Shown: positions 20,359 to 29,646 of the stretch, one piece after another | Layout of the letters: each line of letters begins with the position of its first letter | Position numbering within the stretch: the first letter of the stretch is position 1 | Source of the DNA: Eubacteriales bacterium | GTDB lineage: Bacteria; Bacillota_A; Clostridia; Lachnospirales; Lachnospiraceae | Length of the DNA: 33,287 nt | Assembly (NCBI GenBank): GCA_030533315.1 | Contig: JAUNJL010000025.1 | Coordinates: 1-33,287 of the forward strand | Direction: 5' to 3' | Notes under the pieces: model-generated | Told to the model about the DNA's origin: nothing | Seen by the model: only the letters and a program-made list of their open reading frames with translations | Databases searched by the model: none | Made by a program: the position numbers and the translations under genes

Positions 20359-21138
20359 ATGAAGCTGATTTCATGGAATGTAAATGGGATAAGGGCCTGC
20401 GTGACAAAGGGCTTTTTGGACAGCTTTTCCCTTCTGGACGGGGATATCTTCTGCCTGCAGGAGACGAAGTGCCAGGAGAATCAGATACAGCTGGAGCTGC
20501 CCGGCTATTATCAATATTGGAACTATGCCAACCGGAAGGGGTATTCCGGTACCGCCGTGTTTACGAAAAAGGAGCCTCTGTCCGTGACCAGGGGGATCGG
20601 GATGGAGGAGCATGACCAGGAGGGCAGGGTCATCACCTTGGAATACCCGGGCTTTTACCTGGTCACCGTGTACACTCCCAATTCCCAGGGTGAGCTGAAG
20701 CGTCTCCCATACCGCATGGAGTGGGAGCGTGACTTTCTGGCCTATCTTTTGGGGCTTCAGGAGAAGAAGCCTGTGATCGTCTGCGGGGACCTTAATGTGG
20801 CGCACCGGGAGATCGATCTGAAAAATCCAAAGACCAACCGGATGAACGCCGGCTTTACCGACCAGGAGAGGGCTTGCTTTACCACGGTGCTGGAGAAGGG
20901 CTTTATCGACACCTTCCGCTATTTCTATCCAGACAAGGAGGGAATCTACTCCTGGTGGTCCTATCGATTTAAGGCCCGGGAAAAAAATGCGGGGTGGAGG
21001 ATCGACTACTTTTTGACCTCCGCTTCCCTGAAGGAGAAGCTGGAGGACGCAAAGATCCATACGGAAATCATGGGATCGGATCATTGCCCCGTGGAGCTGG
21101 ACATCAGCCTGGACTGGGACGCCAGGGCTTCGCTTTAG
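20359..21138 (+). CDS. xth: exodeoxyribonuclease III / AP endonuclease
   Basis: This is a base-excision repair enzyme that cuts DNA at abasic sites and trims 3' ends. The 259-residue protein is a full-length endonuclease/exonuclease/phosphatase-fold enzyme: ISWNVNGIRAC at the start, the metal-ligand Glu35 in LQETKCQ, the GDLNVAHREIDL block, YSWWSYRFKAREKNAGWRID and the terminal SDHCPVELDI with the catalytic His. The ATG at 20359 (MKLISWNVNG) fits the family start and has AGAGGAGAG upstream. It has its own promoter. The 148-bp gap after it holds a TTGTC/GACAA inverted repeat at 21206-21220 and a GCCCC/GGGGC hairpin near 21253-21265. Confidence 0.95.
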   Translation: MKLISWNVNGIRACVTKGFLDSFSLLDGDIFCLQETKCQENQIQLELPGYYQYWNYANRKGYSGTAVFTKKEPLSVTRGIGMEEHDQEGRVITLEYPGFYLVTVYTPNSQGELKRLPYRMEWERDFLAYLLGLQEKKPVIVCGDLNVAHREIDLKNPKTNRMNAGFTDQERACFTTVLEKGFIDTFRYFYPDKEGIYSWWSYRFKAREKNAGWRIDYFLTSASLKEKLEDAKIHTEIMGSDHCPVELDISLDWDARASL

Positions 21139-21286
21139 GGGGCGGGGCGCCGGGGCAGAGGGGCACAGGCTCCCGGCAGCGCCAGGACTATGGGAAAATG
21201 AAAAATTGTCACAGAGACAAGAAAGAAGGACAAAGGAATTTTGCGCAGATCGCCCCTGTGGGGCCAAAGTATGAGGAGGGCTTACG

Positions 21287-23329
21287 ATGGCTGCGAAAAG
21301 AAGGAACAACATTCAACCAGGACATCCCCTGTTTTTGGGGGCGAACCGCCTGGCAGAGGGCTACAATTTTGCGGTGGAGGCTCCGGAGGACGCGTCGGTC
21401 TCCCTGCTTCTGTACAGAGGGAGGGGAAAGGCGCCTGCGGAGGAGCTGCCGCTGACGAAGGAGTTTTGTACGGGAAGGATCTATTCGGTTCTGCTGAAGG
21501 GCTTTCGGCCGGAGGGCTTCCAGTATAATTTTCAGATCAATGGAAGGGTTCTGCCGGATCCCTGCGCATACCGCATCTTCGGCAGGGAGCGGTTCGGCGC
21601 ACCCATAGATCCGGATCCCCACAAGATCCGCTGCGGCTTTCTGCCGGAAAAGGAGTTTGACTGGGAGGGAGACCGGATGCCGGAGCTGACCTACGAGGAC
21701 ATGATCCTCTATAAGCTCCACGTGAGAGGCTATACCCGCCAGTGGAAGGGAACGGGGCCAAAAAAGGGCACCTTTGAAAGCCTGATCGGGATGATCCCCT
21801 ATTGGAAGGAGCTGGGGATCAACGCCATCGAGCTGATGCCCGCCTACGAGTTTCCCGAGGTTTCCCCCCATACGCCTCATACGGGGATGGTCACCAGCCG
21901 CAGGCCGGCAGGCCTTGTGAATTATTGGGGCTATCTTTCCGGGTTCTATTTTGCTCCAAAAAGCGCCTATGCGGCCACCAGCGATCCAGAGGAGGAGGTG
22001 TGCCGTCTGGTGCGGGCCCTCCACCAGGCGGGGATCGCCTGCATTATGGAAATGTATTTCCCCGCCGGGACGAACCGTTTTACGGCTCTTCGCGCCCTTC
22101 AGTTCTGGAGGGGCTATTACCACATAGACGGCTTTCACCTTGTGGGGGAGGGAGCGCCCCTCCATCTGGCCCTTCACGACGGGGTATTGTTTGGGACAAA
22201 GCTGTTTGCCCATGGCTATGACCTGGGAGCCATCCGCGAGGAGGCCATGCCCAAGGTGAAAAGCTTCGGGGAGTACAACGACGGCTTCTGCAGGGACATG
22301 CGCCGCTTCCTGAAAAGCGACGAGGGCATGGTGCTAAGCGCAAGATACCGAATGACCCGCAGCCATAAGGATCAGGGCGTGATCAACTACATGGCGTGCC
22401 AGGACGGCTTTACCCTGGGGGACATGGTGGCCTACAATTATAAGCACAACGAGGCGAACGGGGAGGACAATCAGGACGGGAGCTCCTACAATGATTCCTG
22501 GAACTGTGGGGCGGAAGGCCCCAGCCGCCGAACCCTGGTCCGTCAGCTGCGCATGAAACAGATGAAAAACGCGTTTGCCCTTCTGCTCCTCTCTCAGGGA
22601 ACGCCCATGATCTACGGGGGTGATGAGATCGCCAATTCCCAGGGGGGAAACAACAATGCCTACTGCCAGGACAATCCCATCGGCTGGGTGGATTGGAAGG
22701 GCTTGAAGAAAAACCAGGAGCTCCGCTCTTTCGTGAAGGAGCTGATCGCCTTTCGGAAGGCCCATCCCATCCTTCACGGAAGGAAGCCTCTTTTGGAGGC
22801 CGACTATGAGGCAAAGGGCTTTCCTGACGTGTCCTTCCACGGGGAGAGGGCCTGGTACTGCAGCTCCGAGAACACCAGCCGTATGCTGGGGATCATGTAC
22901 AACGGGGCCTACGAAAAAAATCAGGAGGGAGATCCTGACGACGCCATTTACATTGCCTGCAATTTTTATTGGGAGGAGAGGGTCTTTGCCCTGCCGAACC
23001 TGCCGGAGGGAATGCACTGGATCAAGGAGATCGACACGGCGGGGAGCTTTTCCCAGGAAGAGCGCTACAAAAAGGACATTGGGGTAGGGCCCAGATCCAT
23101 CGTGGTCCTCCTGGGAAGACGGGAAGAGCCAGGGGATGAGGAAAAGGAGCCATCCGGCCAGGAAGCAGCGGCCGGGGAGGAACTGCAGGAGAAAAAGCTG
23201 CCCGGCCGGGAAGAAACGGCCGGGAAGGAGCCAGGCGAGGAGAAAAAGAAGCTGCCCCTCCAGGAGGAGAAGGACGGGCAGGCGCAAGGATCGGAGGTAG
23301 AAAAGGATGCACCCGTGGCTGCACTTTAA
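21287..23329 (+). CDS. GH13 debranching-enzyme homologue lacking catalytic residues (probable pseudoenzyme)
   Basis: This 680-residue protein aligns with isoamylase/GlgX/pullulanase-type GH13 proteins: an N-terminal CBM48-like beta domain (about 12-90), a TIM-barrel part with YKLHVRGYT (142-150), YNYKHNEANGEDNQDG (383-398) and LLLSQGTPMIYGGDE (432-446), then a C-terminal beta domain to about 610. The active site is altered. Region I, normally DVVxNH, reads EMYFPA (255-260). Region II, normally DGFRFD, reads DGFHLV (281-286), so the nucleophile Asp is Val. Region III, normally AEPWD, reads AHGYD (308-312), so the acid/base Glu is His. Region IV keeps Asp373 but has Gln372 for His. Residues about 611-680 are a Glu/Lys/Pro/Gly-rich tail. 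The reading frame is intact. A glycan-binding or regulatory role is inference. GAGGAGGG precedes the ATG. Confidence 0.85.
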   Translation: MAAKRRNNIQPGHPLFLGANRLAEGYNFAVEAPEDASVSLLLYRGRGKAPAEELPLTKEFCTGRIYSVLLKGFRPEGFQYNFQINGRVLPDPCAYRIFGRERFGAPIDPDPHKIRCGFLPEKEFDWEGDRMPELTYEDMILYKLHVRGYTRQWKGTGPKKGTFESLIGMIPYWKELGINAIELMPAYEFPEVSPHTPHTGMVTSRRPAGLVNYWGYLSGFYFAPKSAYAATSDPEEEVCRLVRALHQAGIACIMEMYFPAGTNRFTALRALQFWRGYYHIDGFHLVGEGAPLHLALHDGVLFGTKLFAHGYDLGAIREEAMPKVKSFGEYNDGFCRDMRRFLKSDEGMVLSARYRMTRSHKDQGVINYMACQDGFTLGDMVAYNYKHNEANGEDNQDGSSYNDSWNCGAEGPSRRTLVRQLRMKQMKNAFALLLLSQGTPMIYGGDEIANSQGGNNNAYCQDNPIGWVDWKGLKKNQELRSFVKELIAFRKAHPILHGRKPLLEADYEAKGFPDVSFHGERAWYCSSENTSRMLGIMYNGAYEKNQEGDPDDAIYIACNFYWEERVFALPNLPEGMHWIKEIDTAGSFSQEERYKKDIGVGPRSIVVLLGRREEPGDEEKEPSGQEAAAGEELQEKKLPGREETAGKEPGEEKKKLPLQEEKDGQAQGSEVEKDAPVAAL

Positions 23330-23897
23330 AACGATCACAAAGCATAAGCTGATGGTCATGAAATATTGCTTTTCCGTGGGGCTGTATAAGCAGGGCCTGC
23401 TTCATGACCTGTCCAAATATGCTCCGTCGGAGTTTCTGGTGGGGTGCCGGTATTACCAGGGGGACAGAAGCCCCAACAACGCTGAGCGGGAGGAAACGGG
23501 GGTTTCCACCGCATGGCTCCACCACAAGGGGAGAAACAGGCACCATTACGAGCACTGGGTGGATTATGCCCTGGACGACGACCATGTGATCATGGGGGCG
23601 AGGATGCCCCGCAGATACGTGGCGGAGATGGTCATGGACCGGATCAGCGCCTCCCGGACCTACCTGGGGGCCGGCTACACCTGCCAGGCGCCTCTGCGGT
23701 ATTATCTGAAAAGCAAGGACAAGCTGTGGTTCGTCCATCCCCAGACCAAGAAGGAGCTGGAGGGTCTGCTTCGGATCCTCCACGATCACGGGGAGAAAAA
23801 GGCGCTGCGCTACATCCGCCGGGTGTACCTTGCCGGGGATCGAAAAAGGGGTCGCAGGAGATCTGGGGTGGCCAGGAAAAGTGGGGAAAAATCATAA
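23307..23897 (+). CDS. DUF5662-family protein (HD-like, unknown function)
   Basis: This 196-residue soluble protein resembles the DUF5662 family (named from memory). It has histidine-rich segments that look like a metal-dependent HD-type phosphohydrolase: LLHDLSKYAPSEF near residues 31-43 and AWLHHKGRNRHHYEHW near 69-84, followed by MPRRYVAEMVMDRISASRTY. The catalytic nature is inferred from the HD/HHxxxHxxHW pattern only. The C-terminus ends in a basic Arg/Lys-rich tail. The ATG overlaps the end of the GH13-like gene by 23 nt, with GGAGG about nine bases upstream, so the two are probably translated together. Confidence 0.75.
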   Translation: MHPWLHFKTITKHKLMVMKYCFSVGLYKQGLLHDLSKYAPSEFLVGCRYYQGDRSPNNAEREETGVSTAWLHHKGRNRHHYEHWVDYALDDDHVIMGARMPRRYVAEMVMDRISASRTYLGAGYTCQAPLRYYLKSKDKLWFVHPQTKKELEGLLRILHDHGEKKALRYIRRVYLAGDRKRGRRRSGVARKSGEKS

Positions 23898-23984: not shown

Positions 23985-24015
23985 ATAGGCTATGAGACAG
24001 AAAGGGGCGTTTCAA

Positions 24016-25134
24016 ATGAGAAAATATGATTATTTGATCGTTGGGGCCGGTTTGTTCGGCGCCGTTTTTGCACATGAGGCGAAAAAGAGGGGGAAGACCT
24101 GTCTTGTGATCGACAAGAGGGATCACATCGGAGGAAATATTTATACGGAGGAGATGGAGGGCATCCAGGTACACTGCTATGGGGCCCATATTTTTCATAC
24201 CTCCAAAAAAGAGATCTGGGAATACGTCAGCCAGTTTGCGGAATTTAACCATTTTGTCAATTCCCCGGTGGCCATTTACCAGGACGAGCTGTACAATCTG
24301 CCCTTCAATATGAACACCTTCCATCAGCTGTGGGGGGTGAAGACCCCGGCGGAGGCCAAGGCCAAGATCCAAGAGCAGATTTCCAGGATGCACATCACCC
24401 ATCCCCAGAACCTGGAGGAGCAGGCTCTCGCCCTTGTGGGACAGGACGTGTATGAGAAGCTGGTGGAGGGCTACACCAGGAAGCAGTGGGGCCGCTCCTG
24501 CCGGGAGCTTCCCGCCTTTATCATCAAGCGCCTTCCCCTGCGCTACACCTACGACAACAACTACTTCAAGGATCCCTACCAGGGGATTCCCAAGGGCGGC
24601 TACACCCGCATTGTCAAAAGACTTCTGGAGGGCATCCAGGTGTGCCTGAAGACGGACTTTTTCGCAAACCGGGAGGAGCTTTTGGCCCAGGCGGACAGGG
24701 TGCTTTTCACCGGCATGATCGATGAGTTTTATGATTATCGTTATGGGGCCTTGGAATACCGTTCCCTGCGCTTTGAGACGGAGGTCCTGGAGATGAGCAA
24801 TTACCAGGGAAATGCGGTGGTCAATTATACGGATTTCCAGGTTCCCTACACCAGGATCATCGAGCACAAGCATTTTGAGTTCGGCACCCAGCCAAAGACC
24901 GTGATCACGAGGGAATATCCTGCAAAGTGGGAGAAGGGGAAGGAGCCCTACTATCCCATCAACGATCAGAAGAACGACGAGCTTTTTGCCCAGTATGAGC
25001 GTCTGGCCCTGGAGGAAAAGAACGTTCTTTTCGGGGGACGCCTTGGAATGTACCGCTACATGGATATGGACAAGGTGATCGAGGAGGCTCTGAGCCTTGC
25101 CGAGACGGAGCTGGCCTACGCACAGGAAGCATAA
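24016..25134 (+). CDS. glf: UDP-galactopyranose mutase
   Basis: This FAD-dependent enzyme interconverts UDP-galactopyranose and UDP-galactofuranose, the donor of galactofuranose in surface polysaccharides. The 372-residue protein has the N-terminal FAD fold (DYLIVGAGLFGAVFA), the GGN motif (DHIGGNIYTE), YGAHIFHTSKKEIW, the substrate-loop region with GYTRKQWG, and the C-terminal GRLGMYRYMDMDKVI block, all typical. The ATG at 24016 (MRKYDYLIVG) has AAAGGGG eight bases upstream; the ATG at 23992 lies right at the predicted transcription start. No glycosyltransferase or capsule cluster is visible nearby, so the user of UDP-Galf lies outside the window. Confidence 0.95.
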   Translation: MRKYDYLIVGAGLFGAVFAHEAKKRGKTCLVIDKRDHIGGNIYTEEMEGIQVHCYGAHIFHTSKKEIWEYVSQFAEFNHFVNSPVAIYQDELYNLPFNMNTFHQLWGVKTPAEAKAKIQEQISRMHITHPQNLEEQALALVGQDVYEKLVEGYTRKQWGRSCRELPAFIIKRLPLRYTYDNNYFKDPYQGIPKGGYTRIVKRLLEGIQVCLKTDFFANREELLAQADRVLFTGMIDEFYDYRYGALEYRSLRFETEVLEMSNYQGNAVVNYTDFQVPYTRIIEHKHFEFGTQPKTVITREYPAKWEKGKEPYYPINDQKNDELFAQYERLALEEKNVLFGGRLGMYRYMDMDKVIEEALSLAETELAYAQEA

Positions 25135-25729: not shown

Positions 25730-25785
25730 CCCCGAAGGGGTGCAAGGCCCCGCAGACAATCCATATTTTGCAAATGGAGGCAGAA

Positions 25786-28710
25786 ATGAACAAAGACAAT
25801 ATACCGGCATACCAGCTGATCAAGGAGGAGGACCTGGCGGACATCCATTCCAAGGGGTACCTGCTCCGTCATAAAAAAACAGGGGCCAGGGTGGTCCTGG
25901 TGGAGAACGACGATGAAAACAAGGTCTTTTCCATAGCCTTTCGCACCCCGCCGAAAAACAGCACGGGGGTGCCTCATATTCTGGAACACAGCGTTCTTTG
26001 TGGTTCCAGGGAGTTTCCCCTGAAGGATCCCTTTGTGGAGCTGGTAAAGGGCTCCCTGAACACCTTTTTAAACGCCATGACCTATCCAGACAAAACCTGC
26101 TATCCCGTGGCCAGCTGCAACGACCAGGATTTCCAGAACCTGATGCACGTTTACCTGGACGCGGTGTTTTATCCCAACATTTACAAGCGGGAGGAGATCT
26201 TCCGTCAGGAGGGCTGGAATTACCATCTGGAAAGCGTCCAGGGGCCGCTGACCTACAACGGCGTGGTCTACAATGAAATGAAGGGGGCCTTCTCCTCTCC
26301 TGACGACGTGCTGGAGCGGGAGATCATGAACGCCCTTTTTCCCGACACCACCTACGGGGTGGAGTCCGGAGGGGCCCCGGAGAGCATTCCAGAGCTGACC
26401 TATGAGGAGTTTTTGGACTTCCACAGAACCTATTACCACCCCTCCAACAGCTATATTTATCTCTACGGGGACATGGACATGGAGGAGAAGCTGGCGTTTA
26501 TAGACCAGCACTATCTTTCTGATTTTCAGGCCCTGTCCGTGGATTCCCAGATCCGGTTCCAAAAGCCCTTCCAGGAGAGGAAAGAGCTGGTCAGGGAGTA
26601 TCCGGTGTCGGAGAACGAGGAGGAGAAGGACAACACCTATCTTTCCTACAACATGGTGACGGGGAACGGGGCGGATCTGAAGCGTACCCTGGCTTTCGAG
26701 GTGCTGGATTACGCCCTTCTCAGCGCTCCCGGTGCGCCCCTGAAGAAGGCTCTTCTGGACGCAGGGGTGGGGAAGGACATTTACGGCTCCTTTGAGGACG
26801 GGATCCTGCAGCCCTATTTTACCGTGGTGGCCAAGGGGGCCAACCAGGAGCAGAAGGAGGAGTTTGTCTCCATCATCCGAAGGGTCCTGACGGAGGCGGT
26901 CCAAAAGGGGGTGGACAGGAAGGCCTTGGAGGCCGGCATCAATTTCCTGGAGTTCCGTTATCGGGAGGCGGACTTCGCTTCCTATCCCAGAGGGCTGATG
27001 TACGGCCTGGATATCCTGGGTGCCTGGCTTTACCAGGAGGAGGAGCCCTTCGGGCCAGTGAAGCTGCTGCCCCTGTTTGAGGAGCTGAAAAGGGCGGTGC
27101 AGGAGGGGTATTTTGAGAAGCTGATCCGGGATCAATTGCTGGAAAATCCTCACGGGGCCATCCTCGTCCTGGTTCCCAAAAGGGGGCTGGCGGCAAAGAG
27201 GGATCAGGAGCTGGCCGACCGCCTGGAGAGATACAGGAGCAGCCTGTCCAGGGAGGAGCTGGAGCGCCTGGTGGCGGAGACGAAGGCTCTGGAGGCTTAT
27301 CAGGAGGAAGAGGAGAAGCCGGAGGATCTTCTTTGCATCCCCATGCTGAAGCGCTCTGACATCAGGCGGCAGGTCCAGGGGCTGTCCAACGAGGAGCTGT
27401 TTGTGGACGGAAGCCTGTTTTTGTACCATGAGGTCTGCACCAACGGCATCGGCTACCTGGATCTGATGTTTTCCTACGAGGACATGGATCTGGAGAAGAT
27501 CCACTACCTGGGCCTGCTGAAGTCCGTCCTGGGGTATGTGGACACGGAGAACTATACCTACGGGGAGCTGTTCAACGAGATCAACGGAGCCACGGGCGGC
27601 ATCCAGTGCGGCGTGGAGGTCTTTGACCGGGCCCAGGATCCCCAGGGCTTCCGGGCCATGTTTTCTGTGCGGGCCAAGGCCCTTTATCCTCAGATGGACT
27701 TCCTGTTCACCATGGTGGAGGAGATCCTGAACCGCTCCAGGCTTCAGGATGAGAAGCGTCTCCGGGAGATCATCGCCCAGACCAGGTCCAGAGGCCAGGC
27801 GTCCCTTGTGTCGGCCGGACACCAGAGCGCCGTGCTGAGAGGGGCTTCCTATGGCTCCCCCATGGCCCTGTTCCAGGACGAGATGGCCGGGATCGGATAC
27901 TTCCACTTCATCGAGAGGCTGGAGAAGGAGTTTGACCAGAGGAAGGATGAGGTGATCGGAAAGCTGGAGGAGGTTCTGGCACAGATCCTCCAGCCGGAGA
28001 ATTTCATGGCCAGCTACACCGGGGAGAGAGAATCCCTGCAAGAGGTGATGGAGCTGTCCCTTCGGCTGAAAAAGACCCTTTCCTCCCAGGGAGGCTGCCT
28101 TCCCAGAAGGCCTCTTTCCTGTGTAAAAAAGAACGAGGGCTTCAAGACCGCCGGCCAGGTGCAGTACGTGGCCAGGACGGGCAATTTCACAAAAAAAGGC
28201 TATGCTTACACAGGAGCGCTGGACATCCTGAAGGTGATCCTGAGCTACGATTACCTTTGGATGAACATCCGTGTCAAGGGCGGGGCCTACGGGTGCATGA
28301 GCGGGTTTAAGAGAAACGGAGAAAGCTTCCTGGTTTCCTACCGGGATCCCCATCTGCGCCGCACCCTGAAGGTTTATGAGGACATGCCGGACTACATCCG
28401 GGGATTCCAGGCGGATGAGAGGGAAATGACAAAGTATATCATCGGCACCATCAGCGGGAAGGACATCCCACGCACCCCCAAAACCCAGGGGCGTATTTCT
28501 GCCTCTGCCTATTTCCAGGGGATCACCCAGGAGCAGCTTCAGAGGGAGAGAGATCAGATCCTGGATGCGGAGGCGGAGGACATCCGCGCCCTGGCTCCCC
28601 TTGTGGAGGCGGTGCTTGAGGAGGACCAGCTCTGCGTGGTGGGAAGTGAGACCGCCGTGGAGAAGGCCCGGGATGTGTTCCTGGAGACGAAGCCGCTGGT
28701 CACCTGCTGA
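25786..28710 (+). CDS. M16C zinc metallopeptidase (presequence-protease/insulinase family)
   Basis: This 974-residue protein has the four-domain PreP-like layout. The inverted zinc motif HxxEH is seen as HILEH (His64, Glu67, His68), with the third ligand Glu164 in VVYNEMKGAF. The second half carries the non-catalytic M16 repeats and the Arg-Tyr-type substrate-end region (RVKGGAYGCMSGF near the C-terminus). PreP-type enzymes enclose and degrade unstructured peptides of tens of residues. No signal peptide is visible, so a cytosolic peptide-clearing role is inferred. The ATG at 25786 has GGAGG five bases upstream. era follows after 21 bp. Confidence 0.93.
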   Translation: MNKDNIPAYQLIKEEDLADIHSKGYLLRHKKTGARVVLVENDDENKVFSIAFRTPPKNSTGVPHILEHSVLCGSREFPLKDPFVELVKGSLNTFLNAMTYPDKTCYPVASCNDQDFQNLMHVYLDAVFYPNIYKREEIFRQEGWNYHLESVQGPLTYNGVVYNEMKGAFSSPDDVLEREIMNALFPDTTYGVESGGAPESIPELTYEEFLDFHRTYYHPSNSYIYLYGDMDMEEKLAFIDQHYLSDFQALSVDSQIRFQKPFQERKELVREYPVSENEEEKDNTYLSYNMVTGNGADLKRTLAFEVLDYALLSAPGAPLKKALLDAGVGKDIYGSFEDGILQPYFTVVAKGANQEQKEEFVSIIRRVLTEAVQKGVDRKALEAGINFLEFRYREADFASYPRGLMYGLDILGAWLYQEEEPFGPVKLLPLFEELKRAVQEGYFEKLIRDQLLENPHGAILVLVPKRGLAAKRDQELADRLERYRSSLSREELERLVAETKALEAYQEEEEKPEDLLCIPMLKRSDIRRQVQGLSNEELFVDGSLFLYHEVCTNGIGYLDLMFSYEDMDLEKIHYLGLLKSVLGYVDTENYTYGELFNEINGATGGIQCGVEVFDRAQDPQGFRAMFSVRAKALYPQMDFLFTMVEEILNRSRLQDEKRLREIIAQTRSRGQASLVSAGHQSAVLRGASYGSPMALFQDEMAGIGYFHFIERLEKEFDQRKDEVIGKLEEVLAQILQPENFMASYTGERESLQEVMELSLRLKKTLSSQGGCLPRRPLSCVKKNEGFKTAGQVQYVARTGNFTKKGYAYTGALDILKVILSYDYLWMNIRVKGGAYGCMSGFKRNGESFLVSYRDPHLRRTLKVYEDMPDYIRGFQADEREMTKYIIGTISGKDIPRTPKTQGRISASAYFQGITQEQLQRERDQILDAEAEDIRALAPLVEAVLEEDQLCVVGSETAVEKARDVFLETKPLVTC

Positions 28711-28731: not shown

Positions 28732-29646
28732 ATGAACGAACGTATGAAATCCGGGTTTGTGGCCATCATCGGGCGCCCCAACGTGGGAAAATCCACCCTG
28801 ATGAATCATCTGATCGGACAAAAGATCGCCATCACCTCCAAAAAGCCCCAGACCACCCGGAACCGGATCCAGACGGTCTACACGGATCAGCGGGGACAGA
28901 TCGTGTTTTTGGACACGCCGGGCATCCACAAGGCCAAGAACAAGCTGGGGGAGTATATGGTGGCGGTGGCGGAGCGCACCCTGAAGGAGGTGGACGCCAT
29001 TTTGTGGCTGGTGGAGCCCACCACCTTTGTGGGAGCGGGAGAGCAGCACATTGCCCAGCAGCTGAGGGAGGTGGGCGTTCCCCTTCTTCTGGTCATCAAC
29101 AAGATCGACATGGTAAAGAAGGAGGAGCTGCTGCCGGTGATCGACACCTACCGGAGGATCTGCGATTTTGCGGAGATCATCCCCTGCTCGGCTCTGCGCG
29201 GCCGGAACACGGAGGATATTCTGGACTGCCTTTTCCAGTACCTGCCCTACGGCCCCATGTACTATGACGAGGACACGGTGACGGACCAGCCCCAGAGACA
29301 GATTGCGGCGGAGATCATCCGGGAGAAGTCCCTTCACGCCCTGGATGCGGAGATTCCCCACGGGATCGCCGTGGCCATTGACCGGATGCAGGAGCGAAAG
29401 ACCAAGGGCCGTCCGCCCCTGTATGACATTGAGGCCACCATCGTCTGCGAGCGGGAGTCCCATAAGGGCATCATCATCGGGAAGGGAGGAGCCATGCTGA
29501 AAAAGATCGGCAGCAACGCCCGGTTTGAGCTGGAGAGGATGCTGGAGTCCAAAGTGAACCTAAAGCTTTGGGTCAAGGTAAAGAAGGACTGGCGGGACAG
29601 CGACTTCATGATGAAGAATTTTGGGTATGACAAAAAGGAAATCTGA
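28732..29646 (+). CDS. era: GTPase Era
   Basis: Era is an essential GTPase that binds the 3' end of 16S rRNA during 30S maturation. The 304-residue protein has the G1 motif GRPNVGKS, the Era-type switch SKKPQTTRNRI, DTPGIHK (G3), NKID (G4) and SALRGRN (G5). A C-terminal KH domain contains GIIIGKGGAMLKKIG. The ATG at 28732 has AGGAGA seven bases upstream; an ATG four codons later is an alternative. recO starts four bases after the stop, so the two are cotranscribed. Confidence 0.97.
   Translation: MNERMKSGFVAIIGRPNVGKSTLMNHLIGQKIAITSKKPQTTRNRIQTVYTDQRGQIVFLDTPGIHKAKNKLGEYMVAVAERTLKEVDAILWLVEPTTFVGAGEQHIAQQLREVGVPLLLVINKIDMVKKEELLPVIDTYRRICDFAEIIPCSALRGRNTEDILDCLFQYLPYGPMYYDEDTVTDQPQRQIAAEIIREKSLHALDAEIPHGIAVAIDRMQERKTKGRPPLYDIEATIVCERESHKGIIIGKGGAMLKKIGSNARFELERMLESKVNLKLWVKVKKDWRDSDFMMKNFGYDKKEI

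Follow-up and report, generated by a model that had tools for sequence, protein, structure and literature searches.

The pGlgX locus

The window, that is, the whole stretch of DNA that was analyzed (33,287 nucleotides), carries a gene for a GlgX/isoamylase-like protein and, overlapping its end, a gene for a DUF5662 protein. The former is called pGlgX here, a label coined for the non-catalytic GlgX/isoamylase-like protein. The features of this region are listed below.

20359..21138, + strand: exonuclease III-like gene upstream of pGlgX (Pfam PF03372)
21274..21279, + strand: ribosome binding site AGGAGG, read from the sequence, 7 nt 5' of the pGlgX ATG
21287..23329, + strand: pGlgX, 680 aa
21335..21547, + strand: CBM48, pGlgX residues 17-87 (Pfam PF02922, 23.7 bits against a cut-off of 22.4)
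22043..22078, + strand: degenerate region I (IMEMYFPAGTNR, residues 253-264), with a family-wide deletion of about 44 residues at or just past its end
22121..22150, + strand: degenerate region II (HIDGFHLVGE, residues 279-288), with Arg changed to His284 and the nucleophile absent, followed by a shared deletion of about 14 residues
22199..22222, + strand: degenerate region III (KLFAHGYD, residues 305-312), with the acid/base Glu changed to His309
22385..22414, + strand: region IV (NYMACQDGFT, residues 367-376), with His changed to Gln372 and Asp373 kept in the window protein
22421..22696, + strand: retained block, residues 379-470 (KHNEANGE, DSWNCGAEG, YGGDE, GGNNNAYCQDN, W467, W470), carrying outer glucan contacts and residues of the border lobe
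23126..23326, + strand: Glu/Lys/Gly-rich C-terminal tail, pGlgX residues 614-680 (pLDDT below 50 from residue 623)
23307..23897, + strand: DUF5662 protein (PF18907, 121.9 bits), whose start overlaps the pGlgX end by 23 nt

The pGlgX frame runs from the ATG at 21287 to the stop at 23327-23329. Its 680 codons contain no internal stop, and both the intact frame and the good ribosome binding site that had been described for this gene were confirmed. The C-terminal tail is predicted to be disordered; it is variable in length and is absent in many of the 24 aligned family rows. The downstream genes of the window at 23992-25134, 25768-28710, and 28732-29646 are ordinary: they encode a UDP-galactopyranose mutase, a PreP-like M16 peptidase, and an Era-like GTPase, respectively.

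Homology and predicted structure

The curated GlgX model TIGR02100 matched the window protein with 335.6 bits (E 4.8e-100), and by this score the homology of pGlgX to GlgX is beyond chance. The cut-off of that model, 640.9, was not reached. The type I pullulanase model TIGR02104 gave 97.8 bits, which is under its cut-off of 504.5. A structure model of pGlgX built from 102 sequences had a pLDDT of 87; 24 sequences had given a poor one (pLDDT 66). In the predicted model the architecture of GH13_11 is present: a CBM48, a (β/α)8 barrel, and a C-terminal β domain. Its top structural match was GlgX of Streptomyces venezuelae.

GlgX and TreX are the bacterial and archaeal isoamylase-type debranching enzymes of GH13_11. 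In contrast to them, pGlgX lacks the nucleophile and the acid/base pair, has two shared loop deletions, and scores under the TIGR02100 cut-off. As judged from the triad and the curated cut-off, both of which fail, pGlgX does not belong to the active GlgX/isoamylase enzymes. The GlgX of S. venezuelae, the best structural match, is regulated by c-di-GMP, and the window protein does not have the arginines of its site. When the ExR(X)6R motif and Arg31 were looked for in the window protein, E53 was kept, whereas Arg31, Arg49, and Arg56 were replaced by S37, P55, and C61, respectively. With these three arginines replaced, a c-di-GMP sensor using the S. venezuelae site was rejected for the window protein at the sequence level.

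Loss of the active site

Region I of the window protein reads IMEMYFPAGTN, in comparison with ILDVVFNHTAEGN in GlgX. The loss of Asn-His in favor of FPA, which was part of the original prediction, is evident from this segment, and the region I Asp is additionally changed to Glu255. Regions II, III, and IV read HIDGFHLVGEG, KLFAHGYD, and NYMACQDGFT, in comparison with HVDGFRFDLAS, KLIAEAWD, and NFVTCHDGFT in GlgX. The assignments of His309 to the acid/base position and of Gln372 to the region IV His, with Asp373 remaining, were correct; two of the three residues of the catalytic Asp/Glu/Asp triad are absent in the window protein. The alignment across the active site had been called firm. The motifs were indeed placed correctly and the homology is real, but the alignment is not ungapped, since about 44 and about 14 residues are missing. 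This affects the nucleophile, which had been equated with Val286: the assignment holds when residues of the strand are counted onward from Asp281, which is shared, but the alignment of 145 pGlgX and 59 GlgX proteins puts this position in a gap. Read by either placement, the nucleophile of the window protein is absent.

The same positions were read in 148 distinct family members (the window protein, those of 123 survey genomes, and those of 24 further genomes) by counting residues, without gaps, from Asp281 and Lys305; five GlgX proteins served as controls. Acids at both the nucleophile and the acid/base positions were found in none of the 148, whereas all five controls read D and E. Single acids were present: E in 19 and D in 18 at the acid/base position, and D in one at the nucleophile position. 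Close homologues that keep the triad had been named as the finding that would count against a selected non-hydrolytic role; neither the 120 best homologues (54-67% identity) nor the 148 members include one with both acids. In the window protein and these 120 homologues, each of the 121 has L, V, T, I, Q, M, or S where the nucleophile would be, and Gln takes the place of the region IV His in 116/121. The Asp373 position is N in 77 and D in 32 of a set of 145, obtained from the 148 by removing three contig-end fragments shorter than 540 aa.

The two loop deletions, of about 44 and about 14 residues, are common to all 148 members. The spacing between the region I and region II aspartates is 26 or 27 residues in 148/148 (71 in five aligned GlgX proteins), and that between Asp281 and Lys305 is 24 or 25 residues in 148/148 (39 in the same comparison). 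Since no member has both acids and all share the two deletions, the loss of the hydrolytic machinery is, on this comparison, a family trait and not a local decay. As far as these readings go, the assignment of pGlgX as a GlgX/isoamylase homologue without hydrolytic machinery is confirmed.

Origin and selection

In a tree with GlgX proteins, all 145 pGlgX proteins formed one clade with a local support of 0.88. The node joining this clade to the sister GlgX had a support of 1.0, and most of the first 20 sister tips were clostridial, at least one being from Bacilli. The best explanation of this topology seems to be a single origin of pGlgX from a debranching enzyme of the GlgX type. The clade evolves faster than GlgX, as the median root-to-tip distance was 3.7 for pGlgX and 2.6 for GlgX.

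In 11 pairs of genes at 66-74% protein identity, pS was 0.67-0.83 and pN was 0.17-0.22. A check of dN/dS, which had been proposed, gave 0.079, 0.100, and 0.121 in the three unsaturated pairs; dS was saturated in the other eight. Purifying selection on pGlgX is visible in these values. The reading frame is open over at least 540 codons in 145/148 family members; the remaining three end where their contigs end. Recent decay was rejected, because the triad acids are missing family-wide and pS is far above pN; the same two results support the selected non-hydrolytic function that had been suggested for this gene.

A mobile origin was also considered and rejected. The segment 20359-23897 had no megablast match in plasmids; a protein search gave 503 records, and the 12 plasmid rows among the matches listed are annotated glgX.

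Retained glucan-contact residues

For a comparison by column, 145 pGlgX and 59 GlgX proteins were aligned; a filter for the motif FDL removed none of the latter 59. Columns identical in 95% or more of GlgX were taken as GlgX-invariant. In pGlgX, 55 of these 109 columns retain the GlgX residue in 80% or more of the proteins, 37 retain it in fewer than 20%, and 17 are intermediate. The lost columns are at 143, between 255 and 361 (together with the deleted loops), and at 368. Some columns within 254-361 stay in pGlgX, G282, K305, and R339 among them. The GlgX-invariant columns of 374-470 are mostly kept, and only L433 (72%), A458 (50%), and M441 (44%) fall below 80%. Constraint gained relative to GlgX was found, at the cut-offs used, in three columns only: K225, D506, and D514.

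The contacts of S. venezuelae GlgX with acarbose, as given in PMC9530166, were mapped on the alignment with a numbering shift of 3. The outer glucan contacts among them are kept: W214 in 145/145, Y216 as Y in 129 and F in 16, E393 in 143/145, N457 in 145/145, and Y459 as Y in 134 and W in 11. These five residues were the scope of the test; R212 of that paper sits in an unaligned loop and was left out. The contacts from the same source that are lost or variable in pGlgX are the region I His, the nucleophile, the acid/base residue, W380, and His449.

The border lobe of maize ISA1 was mapped by way of the ISA1 chain of Arabidopsis, offset throughout by 27, and identities were checked at N561, W578, and N628. 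The structure of ISA1 (Sim et al. 2014) was taken as related in PMC12510319 and PMC6243121. These three residues correspond to N388 (145/145), W405 (127/145), and N455 (145/145) of pGlgX; R504 falls one residue off the counterpart of R339. W578 is described in PMC12510319 as a direct glucan contact of SBS2.

Taken together, the retained residues favor binding of α-glucan by pGlgX, and the protein may act as does the half of GlgX that binds glucan. The block 374-470 may instead be kept for folding rather than for binding.

Distribution across genomes

The nearest pGlgX homologue found in a genome is that of G001, and 150 genomes from the family of this nearest relative, which we infer to be Lachnospiraceae, were sampled. 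pGlgX is present in 123, a count that includes one fragment (G145) and leaves out four genomes (G023, G058, G062, and G130) whose matches were judged to come from a GlgX-type protein only. DUF5662 is present in 130, GlgX in 43 (limit E 1e-100), GlgA in 149, type I pullulanase in 38 (E 1e-80), and GH133 in 27 (E 1e-20); many of the genomes are drafts or MAGs, so that absences are upper bounds. In a class-level sample, 7/196 genomes matched, six of them with a pGlgX-type protein, including G001 and G036 of the same family.

pGlgX and GlgX occur together in 40 genomes, pGlgX alone in 83, GlgX alone in 3, and neither in 24 (odds ratio 3.9, p 0.03). Co-occurrence of pGlgX with GlgA is uninformative because GlgA is nearly universal. 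GlgX, type I pullulanase, and GH133 are all missing in 58/123 genomes with pGlgX and in 18/27 genomes without it, in a count of debranchers that excludes type II or Gram-positive pullulanase, neopullulanase, and GH57. A replacement of missing debranchers by pGlgX is unsupported, as genomes without pGlgX miss them more often.

Gene neighborhood

pGlgX and DUF5662 are within 3 kb in 67 of the 108 genomes holding both and are not adjacent in the other 41. In 66 of the 67 close pairs, pGlgX is just upstream of DUF5662 on the same strand, a tight linkage that resembles an operon. The gaps cluster near 0-60 nt and near 700 nt, and a TraX gene (PF05857) is present in 13 of the 14 loci with the larger gap. 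The immediate neighbors were counted in 147 loci, which include loci cut by contig ends or with short flanks: DUF5662 in 46 and TraX in 37 on the downstream side, and ABC-F in 46, a small acidic protein in 24, a sugar-binding-type lipoprotein in 17, and exonuclease III in 14 on the upstream side. No glg genes were identified among the named neighbors of pGlgX, which were DUF5662, TraX, ABC-F, UvrD, exonuclease III, tRNA synthetases, and others. The presence of DUF5662 shows no significant association with that of pGlgX (108/123 genomes with and 22/27 without pGlgX, p 0.36). In one homologue (P0069), pGlgX and DUF5662 read as a single fused protein, a picture that an error of one base in the overlap would also produce.

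The TraX-family gene downstream of pGlgX often overlaps the pGlgX end (L011, L013, L017, L025, and others). The sugar-binding-type lipoprotein lies directly 5' of pGlgX in its 17 loci (L124, L136, L138, and 14 more), and the three examined have a conserved Cys, CKKNVGTPEDNA.

The invariant residues of the DUF5662 family are H13, H33-D34, H72-H73, H79-H80, E82, and D111. From this pattern the protein appears HD-like by eye and is probably metal-binding. A search by sequence against solved structures gave no significant relative (best E 0.14), and no other Pfam family reached its cut-off. Homologues of DUF5662 at 34-59% identity are present in nine phage records. The word DUF5662 was not found in the open-licence PMC papers searched.

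Possible function of pGlgX

The reading that we consider probable, with modest confidence, is that pGlgX is a selected non-hydrolytic pseudoenzyme that binds α-glucan and is coupled to DUF5662 or TraX. The CBM48, the barrel, and the C-terminal domain would have been kept, and the two loop deletions and the substitutions would have removed the catalytic chemistry. Most likely, pGlgX would still grip branched α-glucan (glycogen or maltodextrin) via the outer contacts and the border lobe. Glucan-bound pGlgX might bring the co-translated DUF5662 (or TraX) to the glucan, or might report glucan occupancy to this partner. Glucan binding, contact with a partner, a role in glycogen homeostasis, and a location in the cytosol, where pGlgX probably resides, are what we infer from the above. 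Several points are contrary to this reading. W405, whose ISA1 counterpart reportedly touches glucan, is conserved in no more than 127/145; the CBM48 of GH13_11 is described in PMC12510319 as having no glucan site; and the named neighbors include no identified glg genes, 41 cases are non-adjacent, and presence shows no significant association (p 0.36). A further extension is that pGlgX and DUF5662 form a near-core glucan-reading module of Lachnospiraceae, in which the ancient, disarmed debrancher holds glycogen and translational coupling positions the DUF5662 effector. Such a storage-polymer sensor, or two-part glucan-processing complex, would be unlike known glycogen regulators, and this extension is rather unlikely.

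Other explanations were weighed against the same data. pGlgX might bind a glycan other than storage α-glucan, or might form a scaffold for envelope or sugar sensing with TraX and the sugar-binding-type lipoprotein. The positions of these two genes directly next to pGlgX (37/147 and 17/147 loci) are consistent with this; nevertheless, each is found in a minority of loci, and the retained residues include α-glucan contacts reported for GlgX and ISA1, so that this possibility seems unlikely. We give little credence to the idea that pGlgX catalyzes a new chemistry, either by itself or with a metal centre contributed by DUF5662. The 58 carriers without the three debranchers, in a sample where GlgA is found in 149/150, and the many invariant His, Asp, and Glu residues of DUF5662 would suit such an enzyme, but K225, D506, and D514 do not obviously make up a new pair of acids in the pocket, and the greater share of genomes missing all three debranchers among those without pGlgX (18/27) gives no replacement pattern. 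A decaying gene is extremely improbable: the faster evolution is what decay would give, whereas the open frame in 145/148 members, the presence in 123/150 genomes, and pS far above pN all point the other way.

The remaining explanation is a bacterial counterpart of plant ISA2: a subunit without catalysis of its own that would join active GlgX in a complex and modulate its action. According to PMC12510319, ISA2 is a non-catalytic GH13_11 paralogue that has been kept for long with a raised substitution rate, and its continued selection is described there as not understood. pGlgX resembles it as a kept non-catalytic isoamylase that has lost catalytic residues, including the nucleophile, and evolves faster; the same protein family and the same kind of loss, together with the presence of pGlgX in 40 of the 43 GlgX-positive genomes, speak for such a subunit. 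However, GlgX was not found at E 1e-100 or better in 83/123 pGlgX genomes, G001 included, although many of these are drafts and some absences are possibly false, and among the 20 pGlgX genomes examined first, five had a full-length GlgX and a sixth a partial one. The active partner is often absent, unlike in the case of ISA2. PMC12510319 also describes ISA2 as having an extra N-terminal domain and as lacking the SBS2 sequence of ISA1, whereas pGlgX starts directly before the CBM48, with no additional N-terminal β-sandwich domain, and keeps N388, W405, and N455, the border-lobe residues that were compared. The origin of pGlgX seems to be separate from that of ISA2, as pGlgX groups with mostly clostridial GlgX in a tree that did not contain ISA2. 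An obligate subunit of GlgX is weakened by the 83 carriers, a dedicated one is unlikely in the majority of genomes, and the explanation as a whole appears improbable. The suggestion in the original prediction that pGlgX regulates true glycogen enzymes loses ground for GlgX itself for the same reason, at the cut-off used.

Should pGlgX prove to bind glycogen, bacteria would have a parallel to plant ISA2. No description of a bacterial non-catalytic GlgX was found in the titles and abstract openings of the open-licence PMC papers searched. Among 120 listed relatives of pGlgX, the four named entries are annotated as pullulanase PulA and related glycosidase. Annotation-based estimates of debranching enzymes or of starch-degrading capacity may therefore include the non-hydrolytic pGlgX. 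Two glgX homologues in Blautia obeum are reported in the survey of PMC10395257, which may be an instance of this.
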